Origin: Zoogloea ramigera
GTDB lineage: Bacteria > Pseudomonadota > Gammaproteobacteria > Burkholderiales > Rhodocyclaceae
Assembly: GCF_006539865.1 (NCBI RefSeq)
Contig: NZ_BJNV01000019.1
Coordinates: 1-64,000, forward strand
Direction of reading: 5' to 3'
DNA length: 64,000 nucleotides
Numbering within the stretch: position 1 is the first letter of the stretch; each line of letters opens with the position of its first letter. Below the pieces are notes generated by a model. It had not been told where the DNA came from and made no database searches. It was given only the letters and a program-made list of their open reading frames with translations. A program made the translations under genes and the position numbers. Below are positions 22,507 to 40,900 of this stretch, one piece after another.

Positions 22507-22803
22507 ATGAGCGATCAAGCCACGGTCCAGAACATGCAGCAGCCCCAGGAAGCACCGACGCTGGTGTGGGACGACAGCGCCATGCAGACCCAATACGCCA
22601 ATGTCTGCAACGTGATGGGCACCCGCGAGGAGATGGCGCTGCTCTTCGGCACCCACCAGACCTGGCAGCAGGACGCCAAGGAGGTGCGGGTGGCCCTGTC
22701 CAACCGCATCGTCATGAACCCCTACGCCGCCAAGCGCCTCCACGCGCTGCTCGAGATCGCGTTGAAGGAGTACGAAGGCCGCTACGGCGAACTCAAGCTC
22801 TGA
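22507..22803 (+). CDS. DUF3467 family protein (98 aa)
   Basis: Small soluble protein with the DUF3467 pattern. A YANVCNV strand comes early and the typical ending is VALSNRIVMNPYAAKRLHALLEIALKEYEGRYGEL, shown here as RIVMNPYAAKRL then ALKEYEGRYGEL. The ATG is preceded by AAGGAGAG with good spacing. It lies 25 bp after the giant exoprotein gene and ahead of a strong terminator, so it is probably co-transcribed with that gene. It has no signal peptide or membrane segment. The family has no assigned function. Its position suggests a cytoplasmic role in handling or regulating the giant protein, for example as a chaperone; this is inference only. Confidence 0.8.
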   Translation: MSDQATVQNMQQPQEAPTLVWDDSAMQTQYANVCNVMGTREEMALLFGTHQTWQQDAKEVRVALSNRIVMNPYAAKRLHALLEIALKEYEGRYGELKL

Positions 22804-22997: not shown

Positions 22998-23027
22998 CAT
23001 CGCCCCCGAGGGGGCGATGACTTTTTT
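22998..23027 (+). terminator. Rho-independent terminator after the DUF3467 gene
   Basis: A perfect 10-bp stem (catcgccccc at 22998-23007 and gggggcgatg at 23010-23019) with a very tight turn is followed by actttttt. It should end the tolC-like/giant/DUF3467 transcript. The GAF-HlyD gene begins about 70 bp later. Confidence 0.8.
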
Positions 23028-23093: not shown

Positions 23094-24950
23094 ATGCGCG
23101 CTGCCGAGAATCATCCGTTGACCGACCCGTGGAGCGCCATCGCCCGCCTCGACGACGACGCCGAGTTCGCCCCCGCCTGGCTCGATCGGGCGGTGGTCGG
23201 GCTGGGGGGCGCGGGGCAGGTCCGCGAGGCCGTGCTTGTGCTCGGGCCGGCCAATGCCGGGCCGTTCCAGGCCCGCGCCCTGTGGCCCGCCGGCCAGCCG
23301 TGCTCGGCCGAGCTCGCCACCGCCTGCGAACAGGCGCTGGGCCTGCGCCTCGCCGTCAGCCGTCAGGTGGGTGCCGAGTCGGTGCTCGCCCACCCGGTCA
23401 AGGTCGCCGACGACCTCATCGGCGTGGTCGGCGTGCGCTTTCGCCTAGCCGGTGTCCCCGCCGGTGCCGCCGAGTGGCTGCGCTGGGGCAGCGGCTGGCT
23501 GGCCGTGCGCCTCGGCGCGAGCCACCAGGACGAGGGCGACGCCCTCCGCGAGCGGCTGATGACGGCCCTCGACCTGTTGATGCTGACCCTTGGCGAAGGC
23601 CGGGCCGACGACGCCTGCCGGGCCGTCACCACCGAAGCCGCGGTGCGCCTCGGCTGCGACCGGGTGGCGGTCGGCTTTGCGCGGGGCAAGGCCACGCTGC
23701 GCCTGGCGGCGCTGTCCCACACCGCCGACTTCGCGCGCCGGCTCGATCTGGTGCGGGCCCTCGAGGCGGCCATGACCGAGGCCGCCGACCAGGGTCAGCC
23801 GATCCGCCAGGCCGACCACGCTGACAACGACCCCCAGCCCGACGGACTGGTGCGGCGCGACCACGCCAGCCTGGCCCGCGACTACGGCAACGGCCTGATC
23901 CTGTCGGTCCCCTTCGCGCTGCCGGCGGCCGATGGCCTGGATCGCCAGGAGCACGGCGTGTTCACCTTCGAGTGGCCGGAAGACGCCGGCATCGACCCCC
24001 AGGCCGAAGTTCTGGCGAGCGCGCTGCCGGCCATCCTCGGCCATGCCCTGGTCACCAAGCGCCGCCAGGAGCGCCCGCTCCACCTGCGCCTCGGCGACGC
24101 AGGCCGGCGGCTGACGCAGCGGCTCGTCGGGCCACGCCATGGGGCGTTCAAGCTGGGCAGCCTTGCGCTGGTGGTGGCGGTGCTGGCGGGCGTGTTTGCC
24201 ACCGGTGACTTCCGCATCAGCGGTGACGCGACGCTCGAAGGGCGGGTGCGGCGCCTGATCGTTGCGCCCTTCGATGGTTTCGTGGCGTCGGCCCAGGCGC
24301 GGGCCGGCCAGGTGGTGAAGGAGGGCGACATCCTCGCCACCCTCGACGACCGGGAGCTGCAGCTCGAAGCCTCGCGCTGGTCGAGCCAGCAGAACCAGTT
24401 CAACCAGCAGGCCAACGACGCCGAGGCCCAGCGCAACCTGGCGCAGATCCAGATCGCCCGCGCCCAGAGCCAGCAGGCCGAGGCCCAGCGCCAGCTGTCG
24501 GAGGCGATGATGGCCAAGGCCCAGGTGCGGGCGCCGTTTGCCGGCCTGATCGTCAGCGGCGACCTGTCCCAGCAGCTCGGCGGCGCCGTGCGCAAGGGGC
24601 AGAACCTGTTCGAGATCGCGCCCCTCGACGCCTACCGCATCGTGCTACAGGTGGCCGAGAGCGACATCGCCCACCTCGCGGTGGGGCAGGCCGGCGAGCT
24701 GGTGCTTACCGCGCTGCCCGACCGGGTGATCCCCTTCCGCGTCACGCTGATCACCGCGGTGGCCCACACCGAGGGCGGCCGCAACGTGTTCCGTGTCGAG
24801 GCCACGCCCGAGGCGGCGATCCCCGACCTGCGCCCGGGCATGGCCGGGGTCGGCAAGGTGAGCGTCGGCGAGGCGCGTCTGGTGCGGATCTGGACCCGCC
24901 GCTTCGTCGACTGGAGCCGACTGCAGCTGTGGTCGTGGCTAGGCGTGTGA
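23094..24950 (+). CDS. GAF-HlyD fusion: membrane-anchored periplasmic adaptor with cytosolic sensor-like domain (618 aa)
   Basis: Residues 1-345 are soluble and appear to hold one or two GAF-like folds; the clearer one is about 155-310 (ALDLLML...AVRLGCDRVAVGFA...LSVPFAL). A single membrane helix follows at about 355-372 (LALVVAVLAGVFA). Then comes a HlyD-type adaptor: a lipoyl/barrel half (LIVAPFDGFV), a Gln/Ala-rich hairpin of about 70 residues, the second lipoyl half (VRAPFAGLIVSGDL) and a beta-barrel region. The chosen ATG gives MRAAENHPLTDP; a TTG 39 bp upstream is possible. Standard HlyD proteins have only a short cytosolic tail, so this large N-terminal domain is unusual. The next gene starts 10 bp downstream. 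The role is probably to couple an inner-membrane component to TolC; the GAF ligand is unknown. Confidence 0.85.
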   Translation: MRAAENHPLTDPWSAIARLDDDAEFAPAWLDRAVVGLGGAGQVREAVLVLGPANAGPFQARALWPAGQPCSAELATACEQALGLRLAVSRQVGAESVLAHPVKVADDLIGVVGVRFRLAGVPAGAAEWLRWGSGWLAVRLGASHQDEGDALRERLMTALDLLMLTLGEGRADDACRAVTTEAAVRLGCDRVAVGFARGKATLRLAALSHTADFARRLDLVRALEAAMTEAADQGQPIRQADHADNDPQPDGLVRRDHASLARDYGNGLILSVPFALPAADGLDRQEHGVFTFEWPEDAGIDPQAEVLASALPAILGHALVTKRRQERPLHLRLGDAGRRLTQRLVGPRHGAFKLGSLALVVAVLAGVFATGDFRISGDATLEGRVRRLIVAPFDGFVASAQARAGQVVKEGDILATLDDRELQLEASRWSSQQNQFNQQANDAEAQRNLAQIQIARAQSQQAEAQRQLSEAMMAKAQVRAPFAGLIVSGDLSQQLGGAVRKGQNLFEIAPLDAYRIVLQVAESDIAHLAVGQAGELVLTALPDRVIPFRVTLITAVAHTEGGRNVFRVEATPEAAIPDLRPGMAGVGKVSVGEARLVRIWTRRFVDWSRLQLWSWLGV

Positions 24951-24960
24951 GGGCGGCGCG

Positions 24961-27117
24961 ATGACCTCGGCCCTGTTCTCGTCATCGTGGTACCGGGTGG
25001 CCGAGCTCAGGCCGCGCCTGCGCCGCCAGGCCCGGATTGTCCCGCACACCTACCGCGGGCAGCGCTGGTACGTGATGCAGGATCTCGCCAGCGGGCGGGT
25101 GCTGCGCTTCAACCCGTCGGCCTACCGGGTGCTGGCCCTGATGGACGGGGTACGCTCCCTCGACGAGATCTGGCAGAGCGCCTGCCTGACCCTCGGCGAC
25201 CAGGCACCGACCCAGGACGAGATCCTCGGCCTGCTGACCCAGCTCCACCAGGCCAACGTGCTGCTCACCGACCGCAAGCCCGACCTGGGCGAGCTCGCCG
25301 AGCGCGGCCAGCGCCTGCGCCGCACGCGGCTCAAGCAATACCTGGCCAACCCGTTGTCGCTCAAGCTGCCGCTGTTCGACCCCGACCCGCTGGTGGGGGC
25401 CATCGCCCGGCGGGTGCCGCCGGCCGCGTGGGGCGGCATCCTGCTGGTGTGGCTGGCGCTGATCCTGTTCGGCGCGCTGCTCGTCGGCATGCACTGGGAC
25501 GCGCTCACCGCCGACATCACGGCGCGGGTGTTCACCGGCGACAACATGCTGATCCTGGCCCTGCTGTACCCGCTGCTGAAGGCCTTCCACGAGTTTGGCC
25601 ACGCGCTGGCGGTGAAGGCGCTGGGCGGCAGCTGCCGCGAGATGGGGCTGATGTTCCTGGTCTTCATCCCGGTGCCCTACGTGGACGCCAGCGAGAGCGT
25701 GACCCTGCCCGGCAAGTGGCAGCGGATGCTGATCGGCGCGGCCGGGATGATCGCCGAGCTGGGGCTGGCGGCCATCGCGGTGTGGCTGTGGACCGGGGTG
25801 AGCGGCGGGGTGACGAAGGCGGTGCTGCATCAGGTGGTGATCCTCGCCGGGGTGACGACGCTGATCTTCAACGCCAACCCGCTGCTGCGCTTCGACGGCT
25901 ACTACATCTTGTCGGACGCGCTGGAGATCCCCAACCTGTCCCAGCGCGCCAACCGCTACGTGGGCTACCTCGTCCGCCGTTACCTGTTCCGCAGCGAGGC
26001 CCGACCGCCGCTCCACCTCACCGCCCGCGAGCCGCTGTGGCTCACCTTTTTCGCGGTCGGTTCGGTGATCTACCGCACCGTGGTCACCGTCTCCATCATC
26101 GTGCTGGTGGCGGGGCAGTTCTTTGTGTTCGGGGTGCTGCTGGCCCTGTGGGCGGCGTATGGGCTGCTGGTGCAGCCGCTGGTGAAATTTACCCGCTTCA
26201 TGCTGCGCGACCCGTCGCTGGAGGGGCATCGCCGCCAGGCCGGGCTTGTGAGCCTCACGCTGGGCGGGGTGCTCGCCGGCTTCATCGCCTTCGTTCCGGT
26301 GGCCGACTGGACGATGGTCGAGGGGGTGATCTGGATGCCCGAGCAGTCGCGCATCCGCGTGCCGGCCACCTGCTTCGGCGACCGCATCCTGGCCCGGCCG
26401 GCCGAGGCGGTGGTGGCCGGGCAGCCGCTGTTCAGCTGCACCGAACCCGAGCTCGACGCCCAGGTGGCCCAGGCCGAGGCACTGGTGCGGGAGCAGGAAG
26501 CCCGCCTGGCCCTGGCCGCCACCGCCGAGCGGGTGCAGCTGCAGATGGTGCGCAGCGAACTCGCCCACCAGAAACAACGCCTGGCCGACCTGGCGGCGCG
26601 GCGAGGCGACCTGGTGGTGCGCAGCCCCCACGCCGGCCGCTTCGACATGGAGGCGCTGGACGACTTCTCCGGCCGCTACTTGCCCCGCGGCGAGCAGGTC
26701 GCCTACGTGCTCGATCCGTCCCGCTACACCCTGCTGGCGGTGGTGCCCCAGGGGCGGGTGGACCTCGTGCGGCAGCGCGCCGGCAAGGTCGAGATCCGCT
26801 CGGCCGAGCGCCTGTGGGACGTGCTCCAGGCGCAGATCGTGCGCGAGGTGCCCGGCGCCAGCGCCGAGCTGCCGAGCATGGCGCTGGCCCTTCAGGGCGG
26901 CGGCCAGATCGGCCTCGACCCGGAGGCCAGCGCCGACAACCGGGCGCCCAAGGCCCTGGAGCCGCTGTTCCAGTTCGAGATGCAGTTCACCGGCCCGGCG
27001 CAGCCGCGTTACCTGGGCGGGCGGGTGCATGTGCGCATCAGCCACAACCCGGCGCCGCTGGGCGAGCAGTGGTATCGCAGCCTGCGCCAGCAGTTCATGA
27101 AGCGCTTCGCGGTGTAG
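24961..27117 (+). CDS. PqqD-like / M50 metallopeptidase / HlyD-like fusion (718 aa)
   Basis: Multi-domain inner-membrane protein. Residues 1-105 resemble the PqqD fold (WYVMQDLASGRVLRFNPSAYRVLALMDG). Hydrophobic segments begin near 158. The zinc motif HEFGH is at 210-214, with a second M50-type motif NPLLRFDGYY at 306-315 supplying the expected Asp. Further membrane segments lie at 360-405 and 430-445. The C-terminal third is an adaptor-like lipoyl/hairpin domain (EGVIWMPEQSRIRVP; a coiled Ala/Gln/Arg hairpin at 497-550; VVRSPHAGRF). Such architectures are known near peptide- and protein-export loci. It may be a site-2-type protease, a leader-binding protein or an inner-membrane channel partner. 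The stop lies 3 bp before the SecA-like start, suggesting translational coupling. Confidence 0.88.
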   Translation: MTSALFSSSWYRVAELRPRLRRQARIVPHTYRGQRWYVMQDLASGRVLRFNPSAYRVLALMDGVRSLDEIWQSACLTLGDQAPTQDEILGLLTQLHQANVLLTDRKPDLGELAERGQRLRRTRLKQYLANPLSLKLPLFDPDPLVGAIARRVPPAAWGGILLVWLALILFGALLVGMHWDALTADITARVFTGDNMLILALLYPLLKAFHEFGHALAVKALGGSCREMGLMFLVFIPVPYVDASESVTLPGKWQRMLIGAAGMIAELGLAAIAVWLWTGVSGGVTKAVLHQVVILAGVTTLIFNANPLLRFDGYYILSDALEIPNLSQRANRYVGYLVRRYLFRSEARPPLHLTAREPLWLTFFAVGSVIYRTVVTVSIIVLVAGQFFVFGVLLALWAAYGLLVQPLVKFTRFMLRDPSLEGHRRQAGLVSLTLGGVLAGFIAFVPVADWTMVEGVIWMPEQSRIRVPATCFGDRILARPAEAVVAGQPLFSCTEPELDAQVAQAEALVREQEARLALAATAERVQLQMVRSELAHQKQRLADLAARRGDLVVRSPHAGRFDMEALDDFSGRYLPRGEQVAYVLDPSRYTLLAVVPQGRVDLVRQRAGKVEIRSAERLWDVLQAQIVREVPGASAELPSMALALQGGGQIGLDPEASADNRAPKALEPLFQFEMQFTGPAQPRYLGGRVHVRISHNPAPLGEQWYRSLRQQFMKRFAV

Positions 27118-27120
27118 CCG

Positions 27121-29106
27121 ATGTTCTCGCTCACCCTCCACGCCGACACCTACCCGCAGCGCCGCGACTGGCGGGATCTGCCGTGGCTGGACCGCATCGG
27201 GGAGGGCCTGCGCGTGCGCCTCGCGGCGCGGCTGGCCCTGCGGGTGGGGCGTCGCGAGGCGCTGGTTGCCCGGGTGGACGCCGAGGAGGCAGGCCTCGCG
27301 GCCCTCGACGACAGCGCGCGGGCGGCCGTGCTGGCCGAGCTGCGGCGCCAGCTCCGCCGCGATGGCTTCGCCGACGACGCACTGGTGGCGCGGGCCTTCG
27401 CGGTGGTCCGCATGGCCTCCCGCACGCTGCTCGGCAAGGCGCACTTCGGCACCCAGATCCAGGGCGCCTGGGTGCTGCTGCATGGCAACGTGGCCGAGAT
27501 GAACACCGGCGAGGGCAAGTCCCTGATGGCCACCCTCGCCGCCGCCACCGCGGCGCTGGCCGGCATGAAGGTGCATGTGGTGACGGTGAACGACTACCTC
27601 GCCGGGCGCGACCGGGACGAGTTCGGCCCGCTCTACGCCGCGCTGGGCCTCAGTTGCGCCTTCGTGGGCGAATCGGCGACACCCGAAGAGAAATCTGCGG
27701 CCTACCCGGCGGACATCGTTTACTGCAGCAACAAGACCATCGTCTTCGATTACCTCCGCGACCGCCTGGCCTTGCTCGACCGCATGCAGCCGTTGCGCCT
27801 GGCGCTGGATGCGATGCTCGGCCAGCGGCGGCGCCAGCTGCTCCACGGCCTGCAGTTTGCGATCGTCGACGAGGCCGACAGCGTGTTTGTGGACGAAGCC
27901 CGCACGCCGCTCATCATCTCGGCGGCCCGCCCGAGCGTCGAGGCCGAGGCCTTCTACCGCGAGGCCATCGCCCTGGCCGGCCAGCTGGTGGTGGGGGACG
28001 ACTTCACGCTCGAAGTGCCGCAACGCCAGCCCAGCCTGACCGAGGCCGGCCGCCGGCGTTTGCCCCAACTCGCCGCGGCCGGCGCCGGGTCGCCGGTGTG
28101 GCGCAGCGTGCTGCGCACCGAGGAGGCCTGTGTGCTGGCGCTGCAGGCGCTGCACGCCTTCCGGCGCGACATCCACTACATCGTCCGCGACGGCAAGGTG
28201 ATGATCGTGGACGAGAACACCGGCCGGGTGATGCCCGACCGCTCGTGGGAGCGCGGCCTCCAGCAGCTCATCGAGGTGAAGGAGGGCGTCGCGGTGTCGC
28301 CCGAAAAGGAGACCCTCGGCCGCATCAGCTACCAGCTGTTCTTCCGCCGCTACCTGCGCCTCGCCGGGATGACCGGCACCTGCCGCGAGGTGCGCGGCGA
28401 GATGGCCAGCGTGTACGGGCTCGGGGTGGTGCGGATTCCGCCCTACCGGCCGTCCCGCCGGCTGCGCCTGCCGGCCCGGCTGTTCGCCAGCAGCGAGGCA
28501 CGCTGGCTGGCGGTGGTGGACAGCGTCGCGCGCTACAGCCGGCAGGGCCGCCCGGTGCTGGTCGGCACCCGCTCGATCGCCGCCTCCGAGCACCTCTCCG
28601 GGCGCCTGCAGGCGGCGGGCATTGCCCATCAGGTGCTCAACGCCAAGCAGGACGAGCAGGAGGCGGGCTGCGTCGCCCGTGCCGGCGAGGCCGGGCAGGT
28701 GACCATTGCCACTAACATGGCCGGCCGCGGCACCGACATCAAGCTCGACGACGCGGTACGGGCGGCCGGCGGGCTGCACGTGATCCTCACCGAGCTCCAC
28801 GACGCCTCGCGGGTCGACCGCCAGCTGGCCGGGCGCTGCGCGCGGATGGGCGACCCGGGCTCGTGGGAGGAGATCCTCTCCCTCGACGACGAGCTGCCCG
28901 CCGGCCTGCCGACCCCCCTGCTGGCGCTGCTGGCCGCGCGGCTCGCTGGCGGCGGGCAGCGCGGTGCCTGGCATGGCCTCGCGCTGGCGCTTTATCGCTG
29001 GCGCCAGTGGCGCGTCGAGCGGCGTCATGCGCATTTGCGCGAGCTTTTGCTGCGGGCGGACTTCAGAAACCGGGTCGCCTTGTCGTTCACGGGGGAGATG
29101 GAATAA
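27121..29106 (+). CDS. SecA-like ATPase, truncated paralogue (661 aa)
   Basis: DEAD-type motor closely resembling the SecA core. Visible motifs are Walker A MNTGEGKS (127-134), VTVNDYLAGRD (154-163), Walker B VDEAD (249-253) followed by DEARTPLIISA, GMTGT (416-420), LVGTRSIAASE, ATNMAGRGTDI (530-540) and the arginine-finger segment QLAGRCARMGD (568-578). A short preprotein-crosslinking-like domain lies at about 268-410. It is much shorter than housekeeping SecA (about 900 residues). The helical scaffold and wing domains and the C-terminal zinc/SecB-binding tail are missing after about residue 590. All catalytic motifs look intact. It sits between an M50-HlyD fusion and another adaptor gene, so a dedicated export role is likely. 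This is the only motor ATPase in the locus. It is not the cell's main SecA. Confidence 0.88.
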   Translation: MFSLTLHADTYPQRRDWRDLPWLDRIGEGLRVRLAARLALRVGRREALVARVDAEEAGLAALDDSARAAVLAELRRQLRRDGFADDALVARAFAVVRMASRTLLGKAHFGTQIQGAWVLLHGNVAEMNTGEGKSLMATLAAATAALAGMKVHVVTVNDYLAGRDRDEFGPLYAALGLSCAFVGESATPEEKSAAYPADIVYCSNKTIVFDYLRDRLALLDRMQPLRLALDAMLGQRRRQLLHGLQFAIVDEADSVFVDEARTPLIISAARPSVEAEAFYREAIALAGQLVVGDDFTLEVPQRQPSLTEAGRRRLPQLAAAGAGSPVWRSVLRTEEACVLALQALHAFRRDIHYIVRDGKVMIVDENTGRVMPDRSWERGLQQLIEVKEGVAVSPEKETLGRISYQLFFRRYLRLAGMTGTCREVRGEMASVYGLGVVRIPPYRPSRRLRLPARLFASSEARWLAVVDSVARYSRQGRPVLVGTRSIAASEHLSGRLQAAGIAHQVLNAKQDEQEAGCVARAGEAGQVTIATNMAGRGTDIKLDDAVRAAGGLHVILTELHDASRVDRQLAGRCARMGDPGSWEEILSLDDELPAGLPTPLLALLAARLAGGGQRGAWHGLALALYRWRQWRVERRHAHLRELLLRADFRNRVALSFTGEME

Positions 29107-29122: not shown

Positions 29123-29872
29123 TTGAACGAAAAGACCACGCTATTTACCCTGGCGCTCGCGTTGCTTGCGGGCGGCGCGCTGGCTGCCGACCCGGCGGCC
29201 CCCGCCCGGCCCCGCGCCAATCCGGACGTCAGCTGCCTCATTCAGCCCTCCCTCGAGGTCAATGTCGGCACGCCCGTCGACGGCGTGATCGAGGTGATGA
29301 ACGTGGACCGCGGCGACATCGTCAGCCCGGGGCAATTGCTCGCCCGCCTCAATTCGGCGGTCGAGTCGGCGTCCGTCGACACCCAGGCGGCGAAAGCCGG
29401 CTTCGGCGCGCGAAAGCGCCAGCGCAACGAGGAGCTGCAGCGCAAGCAGCTGATCTCGGCCCAGGAGCTCGACGAGCTCACCACCGAGCAGCAGATGGCC
29501 GAACTCGAGCTGCGCGAGCGGCGCGAGCGGCTCAAGCTGCGCTCCATCCAGAGCCCCATCCGGGGCGTCGTCGTCGATGTTTACCGCCAGCGCGGCGACC
29601 TGGTGAAGCAGGAAAAGATCTTCCGCATCGCCCAGCTCGACCCGCTCTACGTCGAGACCATCCTGCCCTCGCGGATGTTCGGCAAGGTGCGCGGCGGCCA
29701 GACATTCGACGTGCTGCCCGAGCTCGGGCCGTCAGCCCAGAAGGCCAAGGTCAGCCAGGTCGACCGGGTCATCGATGCCGCCAGCGGCACCTTCCGGGTG
29801 CGCCTGCTGCTCTCCAATCCGCGCTTCGAGCTGCCGTCCGGGCAGCGCTGCGCCATCAATTTCCAACTGTGA
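29123..29872 (+). CDS. Short periplasmic HlyD/RND-type adaptor (249 aa)
   Basis: Periplasmic adaptor protein with a clear signal peptide (LNEKTTLFTLALALLAGGALAADP). The start is a TTG with an AAGAGGGG site upstream; no ATG fits the signal peptide. A lipoyl half (VGTPVDGVIEVMNVDRGDIV), an Arg/Glu/Gln-rich hairpin (about 85-150), the second lipoyl half (SPIRGVVVDVYRQRGDLV) and a barrel domain follow. It has no membrane anchor other than the leader, unlike HlyD. Its TGA overlaps the ATG of the two-partner secretion transporter by one base, tying the adaptor module to the TPS module. It is the third adaptor-type domain in the locus. Its partner is unknown; TolC-like or M50-HlyD are candidates. 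Confidence 0.82.
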   Translation: MNEKTTLFTLALALLAGGALAADPAAPARPRANPDVSCLIQPSLEVNVGTPVDGVIEVMNVDRGDIVSPGQLLARLNSAVESASVDTQAAKAGFGARKRQRNEELQRKQLISAQELDELTTEQQMAELELRERRERLKLRSIQSPIRGVVVDVYRQRGDLVKQEKIFRIAQLDPLYVETILPSRMFGKVRGGQTFDVLPELGPSAQKAKVSQVDRVIDAASGTFRVRLLLSNPRFELPSGQRCAINFQL

Positions 29873-31956
29873 TGACTCGTGCCATGGTCACTCTCCGTCG
29901 TCCGCGCGCCCTTGCCCTCGAACGTCTCGCCCGGCTGGGCACCGGCTCCCTGCTGCTCGTCGTGCCCGTGGTCGGCTCGCAGGCGGCGCCGCCTGCGGCC
30001 GACGTCGGCGTCGTCACCGCAGGCCAGGCGCGGGCCAGCCAGGGCACCCCGGCGGGGCGCCTGCCGCTGGCCAGCCCGCTCCGCAAGCCGGAGATCCGCT
30101 CCAGCCTGCCCAAGGCCCGCACCTCCCTGGCGGGTCTGCGGCTGTCGATGCAGGGCTTTCGGGTGGAGGGCAACGTGCGGGTCTCGGAAGACGGCCTCCA
30201 GCAGGCGATGGCGCCCTGGCTCGACCGCGAGCTGAGCTTCCCCGAGTTCGAGAAGGCCGTCCATGCGGTGGCCGACTACCTCCGCCACAACGGGCACCCG
30301 AAGGTGCAGGTGCGCATCTCGCGGACGATGATGAAGGAAGGCCAGATGGCGGTCGCCATCGAGGGCCTCACGCCGCGCTCGGCCGACTACGCCGACGTGC
30401 CGGTGGTGGAGCCGTTGATCCATGTGAAGCGCTTCGAAGTCACCGGCGTGACGCGCCTGAGCCCCGACGAGCTGAAGGCCATCCTCGAGCCCTGGGAGGA
30501 CAAGGAGCTCAGCATTGCGGACATGCAGAAGCCGGCCGAGGCCATCGCTGGCGCGATCCGCGCCAAGGGCTACCCCCTCGCCCAGGCCTTCCTGCCGCCC
30601 CAGCGCGTGGACGGCGGCACGCTGGAGATCCGGGTGCAGGAGGGTGTTGTCGATGGCAGCGTGGGCATCGGCGGCATCGTCACCAGTGGTGCCGACAAGC
30701 GCATCCGGCCGGAGGTGGTGGCCCGGGTGCTCGCCGAGGGCGCACCGGCCGGCCAGCCCCTCGATGGCGAGGCGCTCGAGCGGAGCCTGCTCGTCGCCAA
30801 CGAGTTGCCCGGCGTGAAGAAGATCAAGGCCAACCTCGCCCCCGGCAGCCAGCCCGGCACCACCCAGGTGGAAGCCCAGGTGGAGGAGGGCAGGCTCGTC
30901 ACCGGCAGCGTGTGGGCCGACAACTACGGTAACCACTACACCGGCAGCGGCCGCCTGAGCGTTGCCGCCAACCTCAACAGCCCCACCGGCTACGGCGACC
31001 TGTGGACGCTTACCGCCAGCAAGTCGTCGGGCATGACCAGCGGCCGCTTCGGCGCAATTGTGCCGGTCGGCAGCCGGGGTGGGCGCATCGGTGCGTCGTA
31101 CTCGGAAGTGTCGATGGATTTCGCGGGGCAGGTCATCCCGGTCAACCTCGACGGCAAGGCGCGGGTCGCGTCGGTGTTTGCCAGCTATCCGCTGCACCGC
31201 AGCGCCACGTCCAATGTGCTGCTGTCGGGCAGCTACGACGCCAAGAGCCTCCAACACAACATCGAGGGCAGCACCGACAGCGACCGCCAGATCAGCCTGT
31301 TCACCCTCGGCCTGCTCGGCGACGGGCTCGACCGCTTCGGCGGCACCTACAGCTGGAACCTGTCGCTGGCCAGCGGCAGCGCCGACCTCTCGGGCAACGC
31401 CGCCAACGCGCTGCGCGACAACATCGGCGCCCGCACCGACGGGCATTTCACCAAGACCAACTACGCCGTGAGCCGCCTGGCGCCCATCGGCGGCGCCGGC
31501 AGTCCGTGGAGCTGGTACGCGGCCCTCAGCGGGCAGCTCGCCGGCAACAACCTCGACCCGGCTGAGAAGTTCCAGCTCGGCGGCCCCAACGGCGTGCGCG
31601 CCTACCCGGTCGGCGAGGCCTTCGGCGATTCCGGCTACCTGGCGAACCTCGAGCTGCGCCGCAGCCTGGGCAGCACGCCGCTGGGCGAACTCACGCTGCT
31701 GGGCTTCTTCGACCTGGGCGGCATCACCCAGTACCACAACACCTGGAGCGGCTGGAGCACCGGCAACCGGCCCAACAGCTACACGCTCAAGGGCTACGGC
31801 ATCGGCGCCAGCCTGATGAAGACCGACGTCGCCTCGCTGAAGGCGGTGGTGGCGAAGAAGAGCGGCTCCAACCCGAACCCGACCGTCAACGACACCGACA
31901 GCGACGGGACCGACAAGTCGGCCCGGATCTGGATCATGGGCACGGTCAGCTTCTGA
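29872..31956 (+). CDS. Two-partner secretion outer-membrane transporter, ShlB/FhaC family (TpsB, 694 aa)
   Basis: Omp85-superfamily transporter that should carry the downstream TpsA across the outer membrane. The N-terminal signal region is GTGSLLLVVPVVGSQA. Three POTRA-like segments can be read: about 50-120 (FRVEGNVRVSEDGLQQAM), about 140-215 (VKRFEVTGVTRLSPDELKAIL) and about 218-320 (the ShlB-type region with LERSLLVANELPGV). A beta-barrel follows, with the conserved barrel tetrad as VRAY at about 575-578, and the protein ends in Phe (IMGTVSF), as usual for outer-membrane barrels. Family members usually have two POTRA domains, so the extra one is notable. An alternative ATG lies at 29884. 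It overlaps the upstream adaptor stop and lies 26 bp before tpsA. Confidence 0.9.
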   Translation: MTRAMVTLRRPRALALERLARLGTGSLLLVVPVVGSQAAPPAADVGVVTAGQARASQGTPAGRLPLASPLRKPEIRSSLPKARTSLAGLRLSMQGFRVEGNVRVSEDGLQQAMAPWLDRELSFPEFEKAVHAVADYLRHNGHPKVQVRISRTMMKEGQMAVAIEGLTPRSADYADVPVVEPLIHVKRFEVTGVTRLSPDELKAILEPWEDKELSIADMQKPAEAIAGAIRAKGYPLAQAFLPPQRVDGGTLEIRVQEGVVDGSVGIGGIVTSGADKRIRPEVVARVLAEGAPAGQPLDGEALERSLLVANELPGVKKIKANLAPGSQPGTTQVEAQVEEGRLVTGSVWADNYGNHYTGSGRLSVAANLNSPTGYGDLWTLTASKSSGMTSGRFGAIVPVGSRGGRIGASYSEVSMDFAGQVIPVNLDGKARVASVFASYPLHRSATSNVLLSGSYDAKSLQHNIEGSTDSDRQISLFTLGLLGDGLDRFGGTYSWNLSLASGSADLSGNAANALRDNIGARTDGHFTKTNYAVSRLAPIGGAGSPWSWYAALSGQLAGNNLDPAEKFQLGGPNGVRAYPVGEAFGDSGYLANLELRRSLGSTPLGELTLLGFFDLGGITQYHNTWSGWSTGNRPNSYTLKGYGIGASLMKTDVASLKAVVAKKSGSNPNPTVNDTDSDGTDKSARIWIMGTVSF

Positions 31957-31982
31957 CCGTCCGGACAGCAACGGATACCACG

Positions 31983-34900
31983 ATGAACGCCATCAAATTG
32001 CCCAAAGTCCGCCTCATCGCCTTCATTTTCGCGGTGACCTTCAACCCCGGGTCGGTCGTGCTCGCCGCGCCGCCGGCGGCCGGTGCGTTGCCTGGCGGTG
32101 CGCAGATCACCGCCGGCTCGGGCAGCATCAGCCAGGCCGGCAACGTGATGAACATCCAGCAGAACACCGCCCGGATGATCACCAACTGGCAGAGCTTCAA
32201 CATCGGCCAGAACGCGACGGTCAATTTCGTGCAGCCGAACAGCTCGGCGGTGGCCCTCAACCGGGTGCTGTCGGCCGACCCCTCGCAGATCCTCGGCCAG
32301 CTCAACGCCAACGGCGTGGTGGTGCTGCTCAACCCCAGCGGGGTGCTGTTCGGCGCCAGCGCGCGGGTGGACGTGGGCGGCCTGATCGCCGCGGCGATGC
32401 GCATGAGCGACGCCGACTTCATGGCCGGCAAGTACCTCTTCGGCCAGCCGGTGGTGCCGGGCAAGGTGGAGAACCTCGGCGCGCTGGTCAGCCGCGAGGG
32501 CGGCTTCGTCACCCTCATCGGTGCCACGGTGAACAATGCCGGGCAGATCGTCACGCCGGGTGGCACGGCGGCGCTGGTGGCGGGCGACAAGGTCACCGTC
32601 AACCTGGGCCTCACCGGGCTGGTGAGCGTCGATGTGGCGGCGGGGTCTGACGCGGCCCGCGTGGACAACAGTGGCCTGGTGGCGGCCGATGCCGGCAAGG
32701 TGCTGCTCACCGCCAAGAGCGCGGCGCCGATGCTCGCCGCGGCGGTCAATCAGGGCGGCACCGTGCGGGCCGACAGCATCGCCAGCCGCAACGGCGAAGT
32801 GTGGATCGAAGCCCGCGGCGGCGATGCGCGCCTGGCCGGCACCACCCAGGCGGCCGGCAGCGGCGCCGGGCAGACGGGCGGGCGCATCGTCGCCACCGGC
32901 GACACGGTGACGCTGGCCAGCGGCTCGCTCACCGACGCCAGCGGCGCAGCCGGCGGCGGCCAGGTGCTGTTGGGCGGCGGCTGGCAGGGCAAGGATGCCA
33001 CCATCGCCACCGCCGGCAGCGTTACGCAGGAGGCCGGCGCGGTGATCAAGGCCGACGCCACCACCAGCGGCGCGGGCGGCACCGCCGTGCTGTGGTCGGC
33101 CAAGGCCACCCGGATGGACGGCAGCATCAGCGCCCGGGGCACCGGCAGTGGCGCGGGCGGGCAGGTGGAGACATCCTCCCAGGGCAGCCTCGGCCTTGCC
33201 GGGCAGGTGGATGTGGCGGCCGACAGCGGCCAGGGCGGCAACTGGCTGCTCGATCCGGCCACCCTCGACGTCACCACCACCGGCTCGGCGCTGGTGGGCA
33301 ACACCAACGGCACCAACCCGACAGTTTCCAACACCTCGATCCAGACCGCCCTCAACGCCGGCGGCACCACCGTCACGCTGCAGGCCGACAACCTCATCAC
33401 GGTGAACGCCGACATCTCGAAGACGGTCGGGGCGGCCTCGACGCTGACCTTCAACTCGGCCAGCGGCAACATCGTGGTGAACAACCAGATCTCGTCGATC
33501 GCCGGCGCGCTCAACATCAACCTGGGCGCCGACGCCACCCAGAGCGGCGGCAGCGTCACCCTCAACAACGCGCTGACCACCAACGGCGGCAACATCAATT
33601 TCTACAAGCCGGTCGTGCTAGCCAGCACCACGCCGATCTCCACCAAGATCACCGAGGCCAGCAGCGCCCAGTCGGGCAACGTGAGCTTCTACCAGGACGT
33701 CACCCTGGCGGCGCCCGGCTACGCGGTGACGATCAACGCCCAGGGCCCGCAGAGCGGCGCCAACTTCACCGGCCGCGGCGGCAACATCGACGTGAAGGGC
33801 AACATCGTCTCCGGCACCTATCTGCAGCAATATCCGCAGGCCCTGACGCTGGACACCACCGGCGCCGACGCCGGCGCCCCCGCCAGCGGGCCCGGGGCGA
33901 TCACCCTCGGCACCTCGTCGGCCAACTACGTGGGCGGCGCTGGCACTGCGGGCCTGAAGAGCCTCACCCTGGTCGGCCCGCTCAGCACCACGCTCAACGC
34001 CGGCACGGTCAATATCTTCTCCACCTCGGGTGACGTGATCACCGCCTCGTCGCTGCTCGGCACTCCGTCCATCGTCCTCAATGCCGCCAACACCACCTTC
34101 AACGTGGGCGGCGGCACCTACGGCAGCAACACCGGCTTCACCGATTACCTGCAGAGCACCTTCGACATCGTCAAGGCGGCCGGCGACAAGACCCTCACGA
34201 TCAATGCCGACCGCTCCATCAAGCTCGTCCAGCGCAGCATCGACGGCAGCACCACCAGCGGCAAGCTCGACGTGGCCCTCAACCCCTTCCAGTCGTCGGC
34301 CCACGGCAACAGCGGCGGCGCGGTGATCCTGCAGGGCAGCGATTCGGTCGTCGCCAGCATCAGGAGCAACGGCGGCAGCATCAGCCTCGGTTCGGCCAGC
34401 CAGGCCGCCACCGGCTTCGGCGCCGACCTGTCGGGCATCAAGGACGGCATCTACCTCGAGAACGCGGTGCTCGATTCGCAGGTCGCCGGCAGCGGTGGCG
34501 CCGCCATCACCCTCGTTGGCAGCGCGCCCACCACCACCACCGCTGGCGCCGGCGTGCGCATCAAGGGCGCGCTCACCAACCTGCGCTCGGGCAGTGGCGA
34601 CCTCACCATCACCGGCACGGTGTCCGGCGGCGCCTCGTCCGGCCAGAAGGACGGCGTGGTGATCGGCGAGGACGGCAGCTCCCGCGTCACCCTGGCCACC
34701 ACCAGCGGCGCCATCGCCATCACCGGCGACGCCACCGGCGTAGGCACGTCTCCATCGGTGACGGGCGCCAGCCGCTACGACGGGGTGGTGATCTCCTCGG
34801 CCGCACTGGTCCAGACCGACAGCGGCAACATCACCATCGTCGGCAAGGGCAGCGGCGGCGACCAGAGCTACCTGGTCGAGAACCACGGCATCAAGCTCGA

Positions 34901-37900
34901 GAACGCCAAGACCAGCATCGTCTCCACCTCCGGCAACATCAGCCTCTACGGCAGCTCGGGCGGCAAGACCAGCGATTCGGGCGGCGCCAACAGCTTCGGC
35001 ATTTATTCGGCCGGTGACAGCATGTACATCGGCTCGGCGCCCTCCACCGCGGTGAGCGGCGGGGTGACGGCCGGCGGCATCGTCACCCTGGCGGCCGACA
35101 GCATGCAGTTCATCAACGCCTCCAACCTGCACCTCAACGTCGCCTCCGGCGGCGAGCTGCGCGTGCACACCGAAACCGCGGGGCGCAACATCACCTTCGG
35201 CACCCCGGGCGGCGTGGACAAGCTCTACCTTGGCAGCAACTGGTTCAACGGCGCGTCCACCTCGGTGTTCCAGCCGGGCTTCACCGACATCGTTTTCGGC
35301 CACGCGGCGAGCGCCGCATCGGCCACCGCCACGCCGGTGCTGAGCGCCTCCACCGGCACCCTCACCGTGGCCGCGGCCACCACCCTGCGTGACCACGCCA
35401 TCCTCGAGATGGACGGCACCGGCGGCAACGTCAAGATCAACGCCGCCCTCACCGTGAAGGGCAGCACCGGCGGCGACAACGCGCGCACGCTCACCCTCGA
35501 CACCCAGGCCGGTGCCACCGGAGCCGGCACCATCGAGGCCAGCTCGGTGCAGCTCCTCGGTAGCGGCGACAACGTGCTGACCGGCGCCAACCTGGTGAGC
35601 AAGCTCGCCGCCAGCATCGACGGCAACCTGGCCTTCAACAACGCCCAGGCGCTGGCGGTGGATACCGTCAATGCCCGCGACACCGCCAGCGCCGGCCCCA
35701 ACGGCTGGCTTGGTGGCACCACGCCCAGCACCGTCGGCATCAACACCACCGGCCACGATGCCACCATCGCGCTCAGTGCGGGCGATCTCGCCATCAACAA
35801 CTCGATCACCGCCACCGGCGCCACCGTCAGCCTCACCACCCCCGCCGGCAAGGTGCAGGAAACCGGCGCCACCGGCGCGGCGACGCCGGTCATCACCGCC
35901 GACAAGCTCTACGTGGGCGCCCGCGACAGCTCGCTGCTCAACAACGACAACGTGGTCGGCACCCTGGCCGCCAGCGTCAGCGCCGGCAATCTCGAATTCC
36001 GCGACACCCGCGGGCTCGACGTGGGCCGCGTCACCGTGACCAACCGCGTCGCCCAGGCCGATGGCACGGTGGCCACCACCACAACCACCCGCGACGGCAT
36101 CAGCGCCACCCAACCGGCCAGCGGTAACGTGGCCCTGCAGCTCACCGCCGGCAGCCTCACGCAAAGCCAGGACATCACCGCCACCGGCCTGCATCTGGAT
36201 CTCACCAGCGGCTCTGCCACCTTGTCACGCAGCACCAACGACATCGGCACCGTGTCGGCCAACCTTGCCGGCAGCGGCAGCACCCTCAGCCTCGCCGACC
36301 GCAACGCGCTCAGCGTGGGCACCCGCAGCAGCACGCTGCTGGGCAGCACCAGCGGCGTGAGCACCAACAACGGCAACGTCACGCTGGCCGCCTCGGCCGA
36401 CGCCAGCTCCACCACCGGCAACCTGCAGCTCGACCAGTTCGTGAATGCCGGCACCGCGGTGGTCGACCTCTCGTCGGGCAAGGGCGCGATCCTCGAAAAC
36501 GCCGCGGTGCCCGTCGCCATCGTCACCGCCAGCGCGCTCCGCCTGAGCGCAGCGAATACCTCGCTGCTGAACAACGCCAACCAGGTCGGCACGCTCGCCG
36601 GCAGCATCAGCGGCGACGCCCAGGGGCTCGACTTCACCAACGCCCGGGCGCTCAGCGTCGGCAGCGTGCTTGGCACCGACGGCCTCGCCATCGGCAGCCC
36701 GGCGAGCCGCGGCACGCTCACCCTCGACACCGCCGGCGCGCCTGCTGGCACCGGCACCATCAGCCAGACCCAGTCCATCGCCACCGGCGGCCTGCTGGTG
36801 AAGAGCACCGGCGACGTCACCCTCACCAACCCGGCCAACAACGCCGCCACGCTGGCGGCGGATACCGCCGGCGGCAACCTGAGCTACATGGATGCCGACA
36901 ACCTCGCCGTCGGCACGCTGGCCCCCAACGCGGGCGGCGGCGCGACGGCCGGCATCACCGCCGGCACGACCAGCGGCGGCGCCACCGTGAAGCTCGAATC
37001 CGTGGCCGGCGCCCTCAGCCAGGCCGCCGCCTCGCCGATCACCACCCAGAACCTCTACCTGGGCACGGCCAGCGGCGCGATCCTCGACAACACCACCAAC
37101 GACGTGGCCACCCTGGCCGCGCGGGTGAGCGGGGCCGGCGCGCTGGTGTTCTCCGACAGGAACGCCCTCACCATCGGCACCGTCGCCGACGTGGCCGGCA
37201 CCCCGATGGACGGCGTGCGCACCACCAACGGCGCGATCCGCCTGTCGGCCTCCAAGGACGCCGGCAGCACCAGCGGCGACCTCGCCCTCAGCGACGATGT
37301 GATCGCCGGCGGCAGCACCACCGCCACCCTCGAAGCGATCAAGGGCGCCGTCACCGAAACCGCCAACGTCGACATCAGCGCCACCCGCCTGCTCGTCAAT
37401 GCCCAGGACAGCACCGCCCTCGACAACACCGGCAGCGGCGGCAGGCACCTGGTCGGCACCCTGGCCGCCAACATCACCGGCACGGGCGCCAGCTTCGGCT
37501 TCCGCAACGACCAGGCGCTGACCATCGGCAGCGCCACCGCCCAGGACAGCGCCACCGCCCAGGACAGCGCCACCGCCACCAACGGCATCACCACCGCCGA
37601 CGGCAACATCCGTGTCGCCACCCTCGGCAGCGGGGTAGGGGACGCGATCACCGTCGTCAATAACGTGAGCGCCGGCAACAATGGCGCCATCGACCTGCGC
37701 GCCGGCGGTACGGCGGGCGACATCGCCATCAACGGCGCCACGCTTCGCTCCACCAATGGCGCGGGTGCCGGTAGCGGCACCGTGCAGCTGGTGGCCGGCC
37801 GCGACATCAGCACCAGCACCGCCAACAGCGGCGCGGTGGTGACGCCCGAGATCCGCAGCAGCGGCAGCGTGCTGCTGCAGGCCGCCGGCACCATCGGCGC

Positions 37901-40900
37901 CGACGGGCAGCGCATCGAGATCCAGGAGGCCGCCACCCTGGCCAGCCGCGCCGGTGGCGACACCTGGCTGCGCAAGCTGGGCAGCACCCACGCCGACCTC
38001 ACCCTCGGCAGCGTCGCGGCGATCAACCCGTCGGCCAGCTTCGGCGGCGCGGTGAGCAGCCTCGACGGGCTGGTCACCACCGCCAACGATGGCCGCATCG
38101 CGCTGGTCAATGAAACCGGCGCGCTCACCGCCACCCGCAACCTCAGCGCCAACGGCGCCGGCAGCATTGACCTGCGCACCCACGGCGTCGGGCAGGCCAT
38201 CACCCTCGACGGCGCGACGTTGTCGTCCACCAGCGGCCAGGTTCAGCTGATCGCCGGCGGCAACATCGCCACCACCACCGCTGACGGTAGCACCACCGAA
38301 ATCGCCACCACGGGCAACGCCCTGCTGGTGGCCGGCGGCAGCATAGGCGCCGACGGCCGGCGCATCGAGCTGGCCGGCGTGAACACCCTGGCGGCCCAGT
38401 CAACCGGCGCCCAGTGGCTGCGCCAGACCAGCGGCAGCCTCACCATCGGCGCTGTCACCGGCCTCAAGCCCGCCGACACCGGCGGTCCTGACAAGGCCGG
38501 CCTTGTCTCCACCACCGGAGACGCGCCGATCGCCCTCGACGTGGCGGCCGGTGCGCTCAGCGTGGCCCAGGATGTCTCGGCCCACGGCGCCGGCAGCGTG
38601 GACCTGCGCACCGGCGGTAGCGGCAACGCGATTGCCATCGACGGCGCCAGCCTGCGCTCGACCACGGGCCAGGTGCAGGTGATCGCCAGCGGCGACATCC
38701 GCACCAGCACCGCCGACGGCAGCACTCCCGAGATCAGCACCGCCGGCAATGCCTTGCTGGTGGCCGGCGGGGCGATCGGCAACGAAGGCCGGCGCATCGA
38801 GCTCTCTGGCGTGACGACCCTCGCCACCCAATCGGCCGATACCCAGTGGCTCAGCCACGGCGGCGGCAACCTTGCCCTCGGCGCACTCACCGGCGTAAAT
38901 GCCGGCCCCGTGCTCGGTGGCCTGCAGGCCACCGGCGCTGGCAGCGACATCAGTCTGCGCACCCAGGGCGGCAGCCTTGCCCTCGACCAGGGCGTGAGCA
39001 TCGCCGGGGGCACCGGCACCGTCACGCTGGAATCGGCCGGCGCCATCAGCCAGGCGGCCGACGCCTCGGCACGCATCCTCGCCGACAAGGCCCGCGTGGT
39101 GGCCGCGGCGGGTTCGGCGCGGCTCGACAACAGCGCCAACCAGATCAACACCCTCGCAGCCCAGGCCAGCGCTGGCGACATCAGCTTTGTGAACAGCCAG
39201 GCGCTCAGCGTTGGCGCGGTGAGCACCGGCAGCGCCTCCGGGGCCACGGCCGGCGTCACCGCGGCGTCAAGCGGCCGCAGCGTCACGCTGCAGACCCTGG
39301 CCGGCGACATCACGCTGGCCCAGGCCATCACCGCTGCCGATGTCACCACCTTCGTCTCCGCCGCTGGCGTCGCCCAGGGCGCGGGCAGCGATGCCACCGT
39401 CACGGCCGCGGCGCTGCGGGTGCAGGCTGCGGGCGACGCGATCCTCGAAAACACCGCCAACAGCGTTGCCACCCTGGCCACCAACACCGGCGGCCGCAGC
39501 AGTTACGTGAATGCCGGGGCGCTCCGCGTCGGCAGCGTGAGCACCACGGTCGGGCCCGTTGCCACCCTTGGCACCACCACCGGCGTTACCGCCGTCGGGG
39601 CGACCACGCTCGTGGCGGGCAGCGGTAAGCTGCAGCTCGACAACGCCGTCAGCACCGTCGGCACCGGCGCCGTAACCACCCTCGAGGCGGGCGGCGACGT
39701 CAGCCAGGGGCCGGCTGCCGCGGTCAGCTCCGACGCCGTGAGCGTCCGCGCTGCCGGGGCGGTGGCACTGGAGAGCGCCGGTAACGCGGTGAATACGCTC
39801 GCCGCCGAAGCCGCTGACGGCAACATCAGCTTTGTGAACAGCCAGGCCCTGAGCGTGGGCAGCGTGACCACTGCCACCGCCGCCGCCGCCGGCACCCGCG
39901 CCGGCCTGTTGGCGGCAGGAGCCGGCCGGCACATCAGCGTGCAGACCCTGGCCGGCGACATCACCGTCGCGCAGCAGGTCGCCACCAACGCAGATGCGGG
40001 CGCCAGCGACACCGTGACCCTCGCGGCCGCCGGTGGCATCGGCCAGTCTGGCGACGCCGCCGCTGCCCTGAGCACCTCGCAATTGCGACTGCAGACGGGC
40101 GCCGGCGCCGTCGCCTTGAGCAACACCGGCAACCGCGTGGCCAAGCTGGCCGCCGACGTCACCGGCGGGGCGCTGAGCTTCGCCGGCAGCCAGGCCGTCA
40201 CGGTCGACCGCGTGACGACGCAGACCGCGCTGCTTTCCGGCACCACCGCCGGTCTCCGCACCCGCGGCGAGGCCATCACGCTCACCAGCACCGGTGACGT
40301 CACCCTCGCCACCGACCTCGCCAGCGGCGGGGCCGACATCAATGTGGCGGCCGGCGGCGCGCTCACCCAGGGCGCCGGCAATGTCGATGGCGGCACCGTC
40401 CGCCTAGGCGCCGGTGGCGGTGTCAATCAGGCGGGCGCGGGCGTTGTGCGGGCGGATAGCCTGCTGGTCGAAGCCGGCGCCGACAGCGCCTTGCAGAACG
40501 CCGGCAATGCCGTCGCCAGCCTCGCAGCGCGCAGCGCGGGCGCCTTCGCGTACCGCAACGGCGGCGATCTGGCGATCGGCCGCGTTACCCGTGCCGGTGG
40601 CGCGGCGGTGGATGGCATCGCGGCCGGCGGCAAGGTTTTTGTCGATGTGCCCTCCGCTAATCTGAGCCTCACCCAGCCGGTGTCCGGCACCGGCGACGGT
40701 GCTGGCTCCAACGCCGTCGTGCTCAATGCCGGCAAGCGCTTCTACAACCAGGCTACCCCGGGCAGCGCCGCGGTGGTGGCGAACAACGGCCGCTGGCTGA
40801 TCTACGATGACAACCCGGGTTTCGCCGACAAGGACATGAACGGGCTGGGCCGCGACTTCCTGGTGCTGGCGTCGGGCTACGCGGTGTATGGCCCCGACCA

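Follow-up and report, generated by a model that had tools for sequence, protein, structure and literature searches.

Among the described systems closest to the present locus is the module of SecA_DEAD, M50-HlyD, GAF-HlyD and HlyD proteins reported by Kamneva et al. in 2015, which lacks an ABC transporter, whose biological role was left open, and whose M50 protein was suggested to be a pore for SecA_DEAD (PMC4452313). A text search of that paper returned none of the terms PqqD, LEPR, giant and adhesin. A related architecture is known from daptides, where MpaP, a site-2 protease with a fused RRE, is credited with removing a leader that carries the motif ELExMEAP (PMC10036551), and cleavage comes after ELExxxxx (PMC12338566). 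As for the giant proteins that bear the LEPR-XLL tag, one of a Vibrio has been mentioned without an export system (PMC10868602).

The window analyzed here (the whole stretch of 64,000 nucleotides from Zoogloea ramigera) begins with a run of genes encoding, in this order, a TolC-family channel, a LEPR/DUF4347 giant, a DUF3467 protein, a GAF-adaptor, a PqqD-M50-adaptor fusion, a truncated SecA, a small adaptor and a two-partner secretion pair. The window cassette holds no ABC transporter; the contig starts just upstream of TolC, and the sequence is readable from there on. The features are as follows:

27-1463, + strand: TolC-family outer-membrane channel (TIGR01844, 271.8 bits, cut-off 225.15)
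1533-22481, + strand: giant LEPR-XLL/DUF4347 protein of 6982 aa with RTX and cadherin-like repeats, the proposed substrate (profile matches)
1656-1712, + strand: LEPR leader segment MVIEAIEPRVLLSAEALIV, giant residues 42-60 (NF012209, 25.5 bits, cut-off 17; family consensus)
22507-22803, + strand: DUF3467 protein of 98 aa (Pfam PF11950, 78.8 bits)
23094-24950, + strand: GAF-containing adaptor (GAF-HlyD), a second membrane-anchored adaptor of near-equal hairpin length (Pfam; AlphaFold2, pLDDT 90.5)
24961-27117, + strand: PqqD-M50-adaptor protein of 718 aa, whole ORF (Pfam, relatives, AlphaFold2)
25003-25272, + strand: PqqD/RRE winged-helix domain, residues 15-104 (PF05402 above cut-off, AlphaFold2, conservation)
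25420-26292, + strand: M50 site-2-protease membrane core, residues 154-444, with 7 predicted TM helices (PF02163 above cut-off, AlphaFold2, hydropathy)
25588-25602, + strand: HEFGH zinc site, residues 210-214 (H, E and H identical in 54/54 relatives)
25876-25905, + strand: NPLLRFDGYY, residues 306-315, with D312 as the presumed third metal ligand (P307, D312 and Y314 identical in 54/54)
26293-27114, + strand: periplasmic adaptor, residues 445-718, of MexA/AcrA type at 446-699, hairpin 496-519/524-549 (AlphaFold2, Foldseek, profile matches)
27121-29106, + strand: truncated SecA-like ATPase with DEAD, preprotein-crosslinking and P-loop domains (Pfam, synteny)
29123-29872, + strand: small periplasmic HlyD-like adaptor with a signal-peptide-like N-terminus, TTG start inferred (Pfam, sequence)

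The adjacent SecA_DEAD, M50, GAF-HlyD and HlyD genes are those of the 2015 module; the SecA-like protein shows no scaffold or wing match in Pfam and scores below the SecA2 equivalog cut-offs (434 against 930 for TIGR03714, with the others below too). In 80 named loci of PqqD-M50-adaptor relatives that we took for comparison, the GAF-adaptor, the M50 protein and the SecA-like protein occur together nearly always and the small adaptor in most cases, and DUF3467, which lies between the giant and the adaptor in the window, is present in part of the related loci. The two-partner secretion pair that follows the cassette (29869-41429; TpsB at 29869-31956, TpsA at 31983-41429, 3148 aa) is kept wholly or in part in the closest relatives (L036-L041, L193). 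Between the DUF3467 and GAF-adaptor genes there is, at 22998-23019, a strong hairpin that with its T run resembles a terminator and could set the expression of the giant apart from that of the machinery.

The initial annotation had described the fusion as an M50 protease with a complete metal site, preceded by a PqqD-like domain and followed by a HlyD-like hairpin, and each part of this description was borne out, the ORF, its frame and the positions of HEFGH and NPLLRFDGYY being exact. PqqD (PF05402) scores 26.5 bits against a Pfam gathering score of 23.4, and the AlphaFold2 model, built on 64 relatives and with a mean pLDDT of 87.7, places a three-strand, three-helix winged helix there in the order b-b-b-a-a-a (b24-31, b34-41, b47-50, a52-59, a67-81, a85-97), the fold expected of a PqqD/RRE domain. 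Peptidase_M50 (PF02163) reaches 32.1 bits against 27.2, and seven TM helices are predicted (154-177, 193-220, 252-279, 284-304, 357-386, 388-416 and 424-444), of which the second bears HExxH; this motif and the distal NPxxxxDG form a metal site located in TM helices, as in M50 site-2 proteases. The adaptor was harder to recognize, HlyD_3 remaining below the Pfam cut-off in a single-sequence search (16.2 against 22.2) and a PDB sequence search with the 718-aa protein alone giving no match. However, the modeled hairpin, lipoyl and barrel fold, typical of tripartite adaptors of the HlyD/MexA type, matches MexA, AcrA and MacA in Foldseek at E about 1e-10, and the family profile matches MexA and MacA across about 445-635, so that, judged by model and profile, we regard the adaptor as real. 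The same profile, searched against the PDB, found the PqqD domain weakly (5sxy, E 0.68) in addition to the adaptors. Charged segments flanking the TM helices agree with a PqqD domain inside and an adaptor outside; with the predicted seven-helix topology, a single chain would thus join a reader of leaders in the cytoplasm to a conduit in the periplasm.

Of 200 genomes of the phylum, 75 encode relatives of the fusion, and several paralogues are often present; many of the relatives come from frames about 700-760 aa long and align with all of residues 1-718. The named genomes with relatives belong to the alpha-, beta- and gammaproteobacteria, to deltaproteobacterial groups, to the Nitrospiraceae and to the Rokubacteria, and one is an Omnitrophota MAG; Methylobacterium aquaticum DSM 16371 (L159) and Neptuniibacter caesariensis (L147) are among the hosts of such a system. 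These 75 genomes together with the 80 named loci rule out that the architecture is an ORF artefact or arose by chance fusion. H210, E211, H214, N304, P307, D312 and Y314 are the same in 54 of 54 aligned relatives, even where identity drops to about 25%, and an unvarying metal site at such distances argues for retained protease activity. In the PqqD domain, R49 of strand b3 is invariant in 64/64 close relatives. The Z. ramigera genome carries a second, divergent cassette (L049, G000:C66:2501-22500), whose M50 protein is about 35% identical to the window protein and which has its own giant downstream with the tag SFEPRIMYSAG.

The giant in the window carries a LEPR-XLL N-terminus according to NCBIfam NF012209, and we searched this family and the M50 protein over the same 200 genomes. 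Both were found in 65, only the M50 protein in 10, only LEPR in 10 and neither in 115 (p about 9e-31); in the phylum of the Desulfobulbaceae MAG L127, the corresponding counts were 6, 2, 12 and 128 (p = 3e-5). These p-values overstate the independence of genomes that are related to one another, but many families in two phyla show the pattern; the Omnitrophota MAG group, with 14 genomes, is too small for such a test. In the LEPR-only genomes the match lies mostly in a short frame, and where an M50-negative genome had its match in a frame shorter than about 800 aa, we took it as chance. If only LEPR frames of 800 aa or more are counted, the 200 genomes divide into 64 with both, 11 with M50 only, 2 with LEPR only (G028 and G189, which keep a longer-frame match) and 123 with neither. 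From the other side, 6 of the 10 M50-only genomes have near the M50 gene a giant with the variant tag LE[PQRA]RxxFD[GA]A (for example LEPRQLFDGAA, LEQRIAFDAAG, LEARMMFDGAV or LERRIAFDAAA), and the NCBIfam search missed these variant-tag giants at L242, L244, L246, L248, L251 and L253. Among the 44 named M50-positive genomes, 42 have a LEPR match. Where the giant and the M50 gene share a contig, 42 of 44 LEPR giants lie within about 11 kb of the M50 gene, 36 on the same strand. One LEPR match, at G061:C115:112865-112924, is situated inside a frame that runs for 19,427 aa without interruption. We may conclude that the PqqD-M50-adaptor fusion is real and conserved, and that it is hardly ever separated from LEPR-tagged giants.

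The tags fall into two classes, with the consensus h-E-A-[LM]-E-[PDE]-R-x-[LM]-L-S-[AG]-[DE] in class I and L-A-L-E-P-R-x-[LM]-F-D-[GA]-A in class II; among the leaders picked by pattern, G105a in the covariation set and L094, L099 and L100 in the consensus set were mis-picked, which adds noise and not signal. The SecA-like gene follows this division, being present in 11 neighbourhoods with S-type leaders and absent from 1, and present in none and absent from 9 with D-type leaders (p = 3e-5); the sole S-type locus without it, G186, has an intermediate LFSA leader. The distance between leaders correlates with the distance between M50 proteins (r 0.65-0.75, 38 pairs), also when re-pairing is allowed only among paralogous systems within one genome (p <= 0.0006), so the tag type tracks the M50 protein of its own locus even among paralogues. 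We asked of this covariation whether it singles out the PqqD domain and rejected the idea; the PqqD, M50 and adaptor parts covary alike, co-inheritance of the cassette explains the signal without binding, and what it shows is matched cassettes. The SecA-like protein and DUF3467 were likewise rejected as general LEPR receptors, because both are absent from many LEPR loci in which the M50 protein persists. Taken with the co-occurrence and the gene adjacency, the covariation within genomes strongly supports the earlier proposal that the LEPR region is the cognate substrate region.

Because the fusion almost always occurs with LEPR giants, its probable role in their secretion is to recognize them, trim them and hand them over. 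We consider it the inner-membrane processing-and-adaptor subunit of an ABC-transporter-free secretion system for LEPR-tagged giants, which would bind the leader, cut it and pass the chain on, with a probability of roughly 60%. Leader binding, the cleavage and its site, the co-assembly of adaptors and the route across the inner membrane we infer as follows. The cytoplasmic PqqD/RRE domain would bind the LEPR leader of the giant, and the membrane M50 core would cut the chain at or just past this leader; if the daptide rule of a cut five residues past ELE holds, the site would lie behind the R of LEPR or in front of S[AG]D. In assembly with the GAF-adaptor, the periplasmic adaptor would then hand the unfolded chain to the TolC channel; in the AlphaFold2 models the hairpins are of near-equal length (26+26 residues in the GAF-adaptor, 24+26 in the fusion) and a C-terminal helix ends both proteins, which is consistent with mixed rings of the two. 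In class I (leader LLSAD or LLSGE), the truncated SecA would give an ATP-driven push, probably via SecYEG, while class II (leader LFDGA), lacking the truncated SecA, may use the housekeeping SecA instead. That PqqD binds LEPR and M50 trims it, as the initial annotation had suggested, is the best-supported reading; taken singly, specific recognition of LEPR by the PqqD domain is slightly favored, and for cleavage of the giant by the M50 core the odds appear about even. To our knowledge, the mature N-terminus has been established for no LEPR giant.

The membrane part could also be imagined as a pore that replaces the ABC transporter, its proteolysis being incidental or lost, which would suit the absence of ABC transporters from the loci and the pore role proposed for this M50 protein in 2015 (PMC4452313). 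Yet a pore has no need of HExxH and D312, which are invariant in 54/54 proteins. We know of no M50 structure that is a protein-conducting channel, and we consider the pore improbable. It is also conceivable, though unlikely, that the LEPR tag is read by SecYEG/SecA or by an adaptor and that the PqqD-M50 part acts on some other substrate, such as a short peptide secreted alongside or a regulatory protein: the covariation with the leader lacks specificity for PqqD, the GAF domains suggest regulation, and the presence of the SecA-like protein follows the leader class. Against this, class II loci without the SecA-like protein still have LEPR and the M50 protein, and in a non-exhaustive look at the neighbourhoods we noticed no recurrent small precursor gene.

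A further explanation accepts the PqqD domain as the RRE for the leader and lets the M50 core only gate or release the chain after export, or cut elsewhere, for example by removing a membrane anchor and so shedding the giant. It draws on the LEPR segment itself, which is only mildly hydrophobic (19-residue GRAVY 1.44) and, by its sequence, would form no clear TM helix, the usual M50 substrate; this counts against trimming by the M50 core. In principle, other proteases are known to free giant adhesins from the surface, as LapG does with LapA. However, the active sites of site-2 proteases are embedded in the membrane close to its cytoplasmic face, here beside the PqqD domain, and inspection of the giant's C-terminal sequence by eye reveals no apparent TM anchor, so that we give this explanation little likelihood.

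For an M50 and HlyD combination with PqqD or an adhesin, and for an export route for LEPR giants, we found nothing in the open-access literature searched; as this literature is incomplete, the link between LEPR giants and the fusion is likely, rather than certain, to be novel. The SecA/M50/HlyD module has been known since 2015 (PMC4452313), and what is new is the genome-wide co-occurrence, adjacency and covariation of LEPR giants with the fusion, together with its homology to daptide MpaP. The link gives this module a substrate, points to a function of the LEPR-XLL domain carried by very large bacterial proteins, and ties protein secretion to the leader recognition of RiPPs. Tentatively, and at somewhat less than even odds, we propose a distinct secretion class in which an N-terminal RiPP-like leader, LE[PQDE]R, is read by an RRE and removed by an adaptor-built intramembrane protease, with a truncated SecA motor in one subclass. 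If this holds, RiPP-type leader recognition would also serve the secretion of proteins thousands of residues long.

Compared with known systems, the window cassette has the same gene set as the secondary SecA_DEAD/type-I-related module, likewise without an ABC transporter (PMC4452313). The PqqD-M50 part is homologous over residues 18-404 to daptide MpaP/DapP, in which an M50 intramembrane protease likewise follows a fused N-terminal RRE: the daptide RRE-metalloprotease family NF041824 matches the window protein at 143.2 bits (1e-41), below the equivalog cut-off of 300, and is matched by 64/64 relatives (best E 3e-52). MpaP offers a homologous precedent for the proposed binding by PqqD and trimming by M50. 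The daptide leader ELExMEAP resembles hEALEPR in residue type and spacing, a likeness only suggestive in a short motif of about six residues. Unlike the window protein, the NF041824 profile (379 positions) contains no adaptor domain, and daptide proteases act on short peptides, whereas the substrate proposed here is a giant; no daptide genes were seen in the window's cassette. NCBIfam LEPR-XLL, for its part, describes the substrate tag only and does not cover LEQR, LEAR and LERR with FD[GA]A. With the type I systems that export giant adhesins (HlyBD-TolC, LapBCE), the locus shares an adaptor, TolC and giant RTX repeat proteins; it differs in having no ABC transporter, whose signature (Walker A plus LSGG) is absent in 38 of 39 other neighbourhoods, in carrying an N-terminal tag instead of a C-terminal signal, and in the fusion of a protease to the adaptor.
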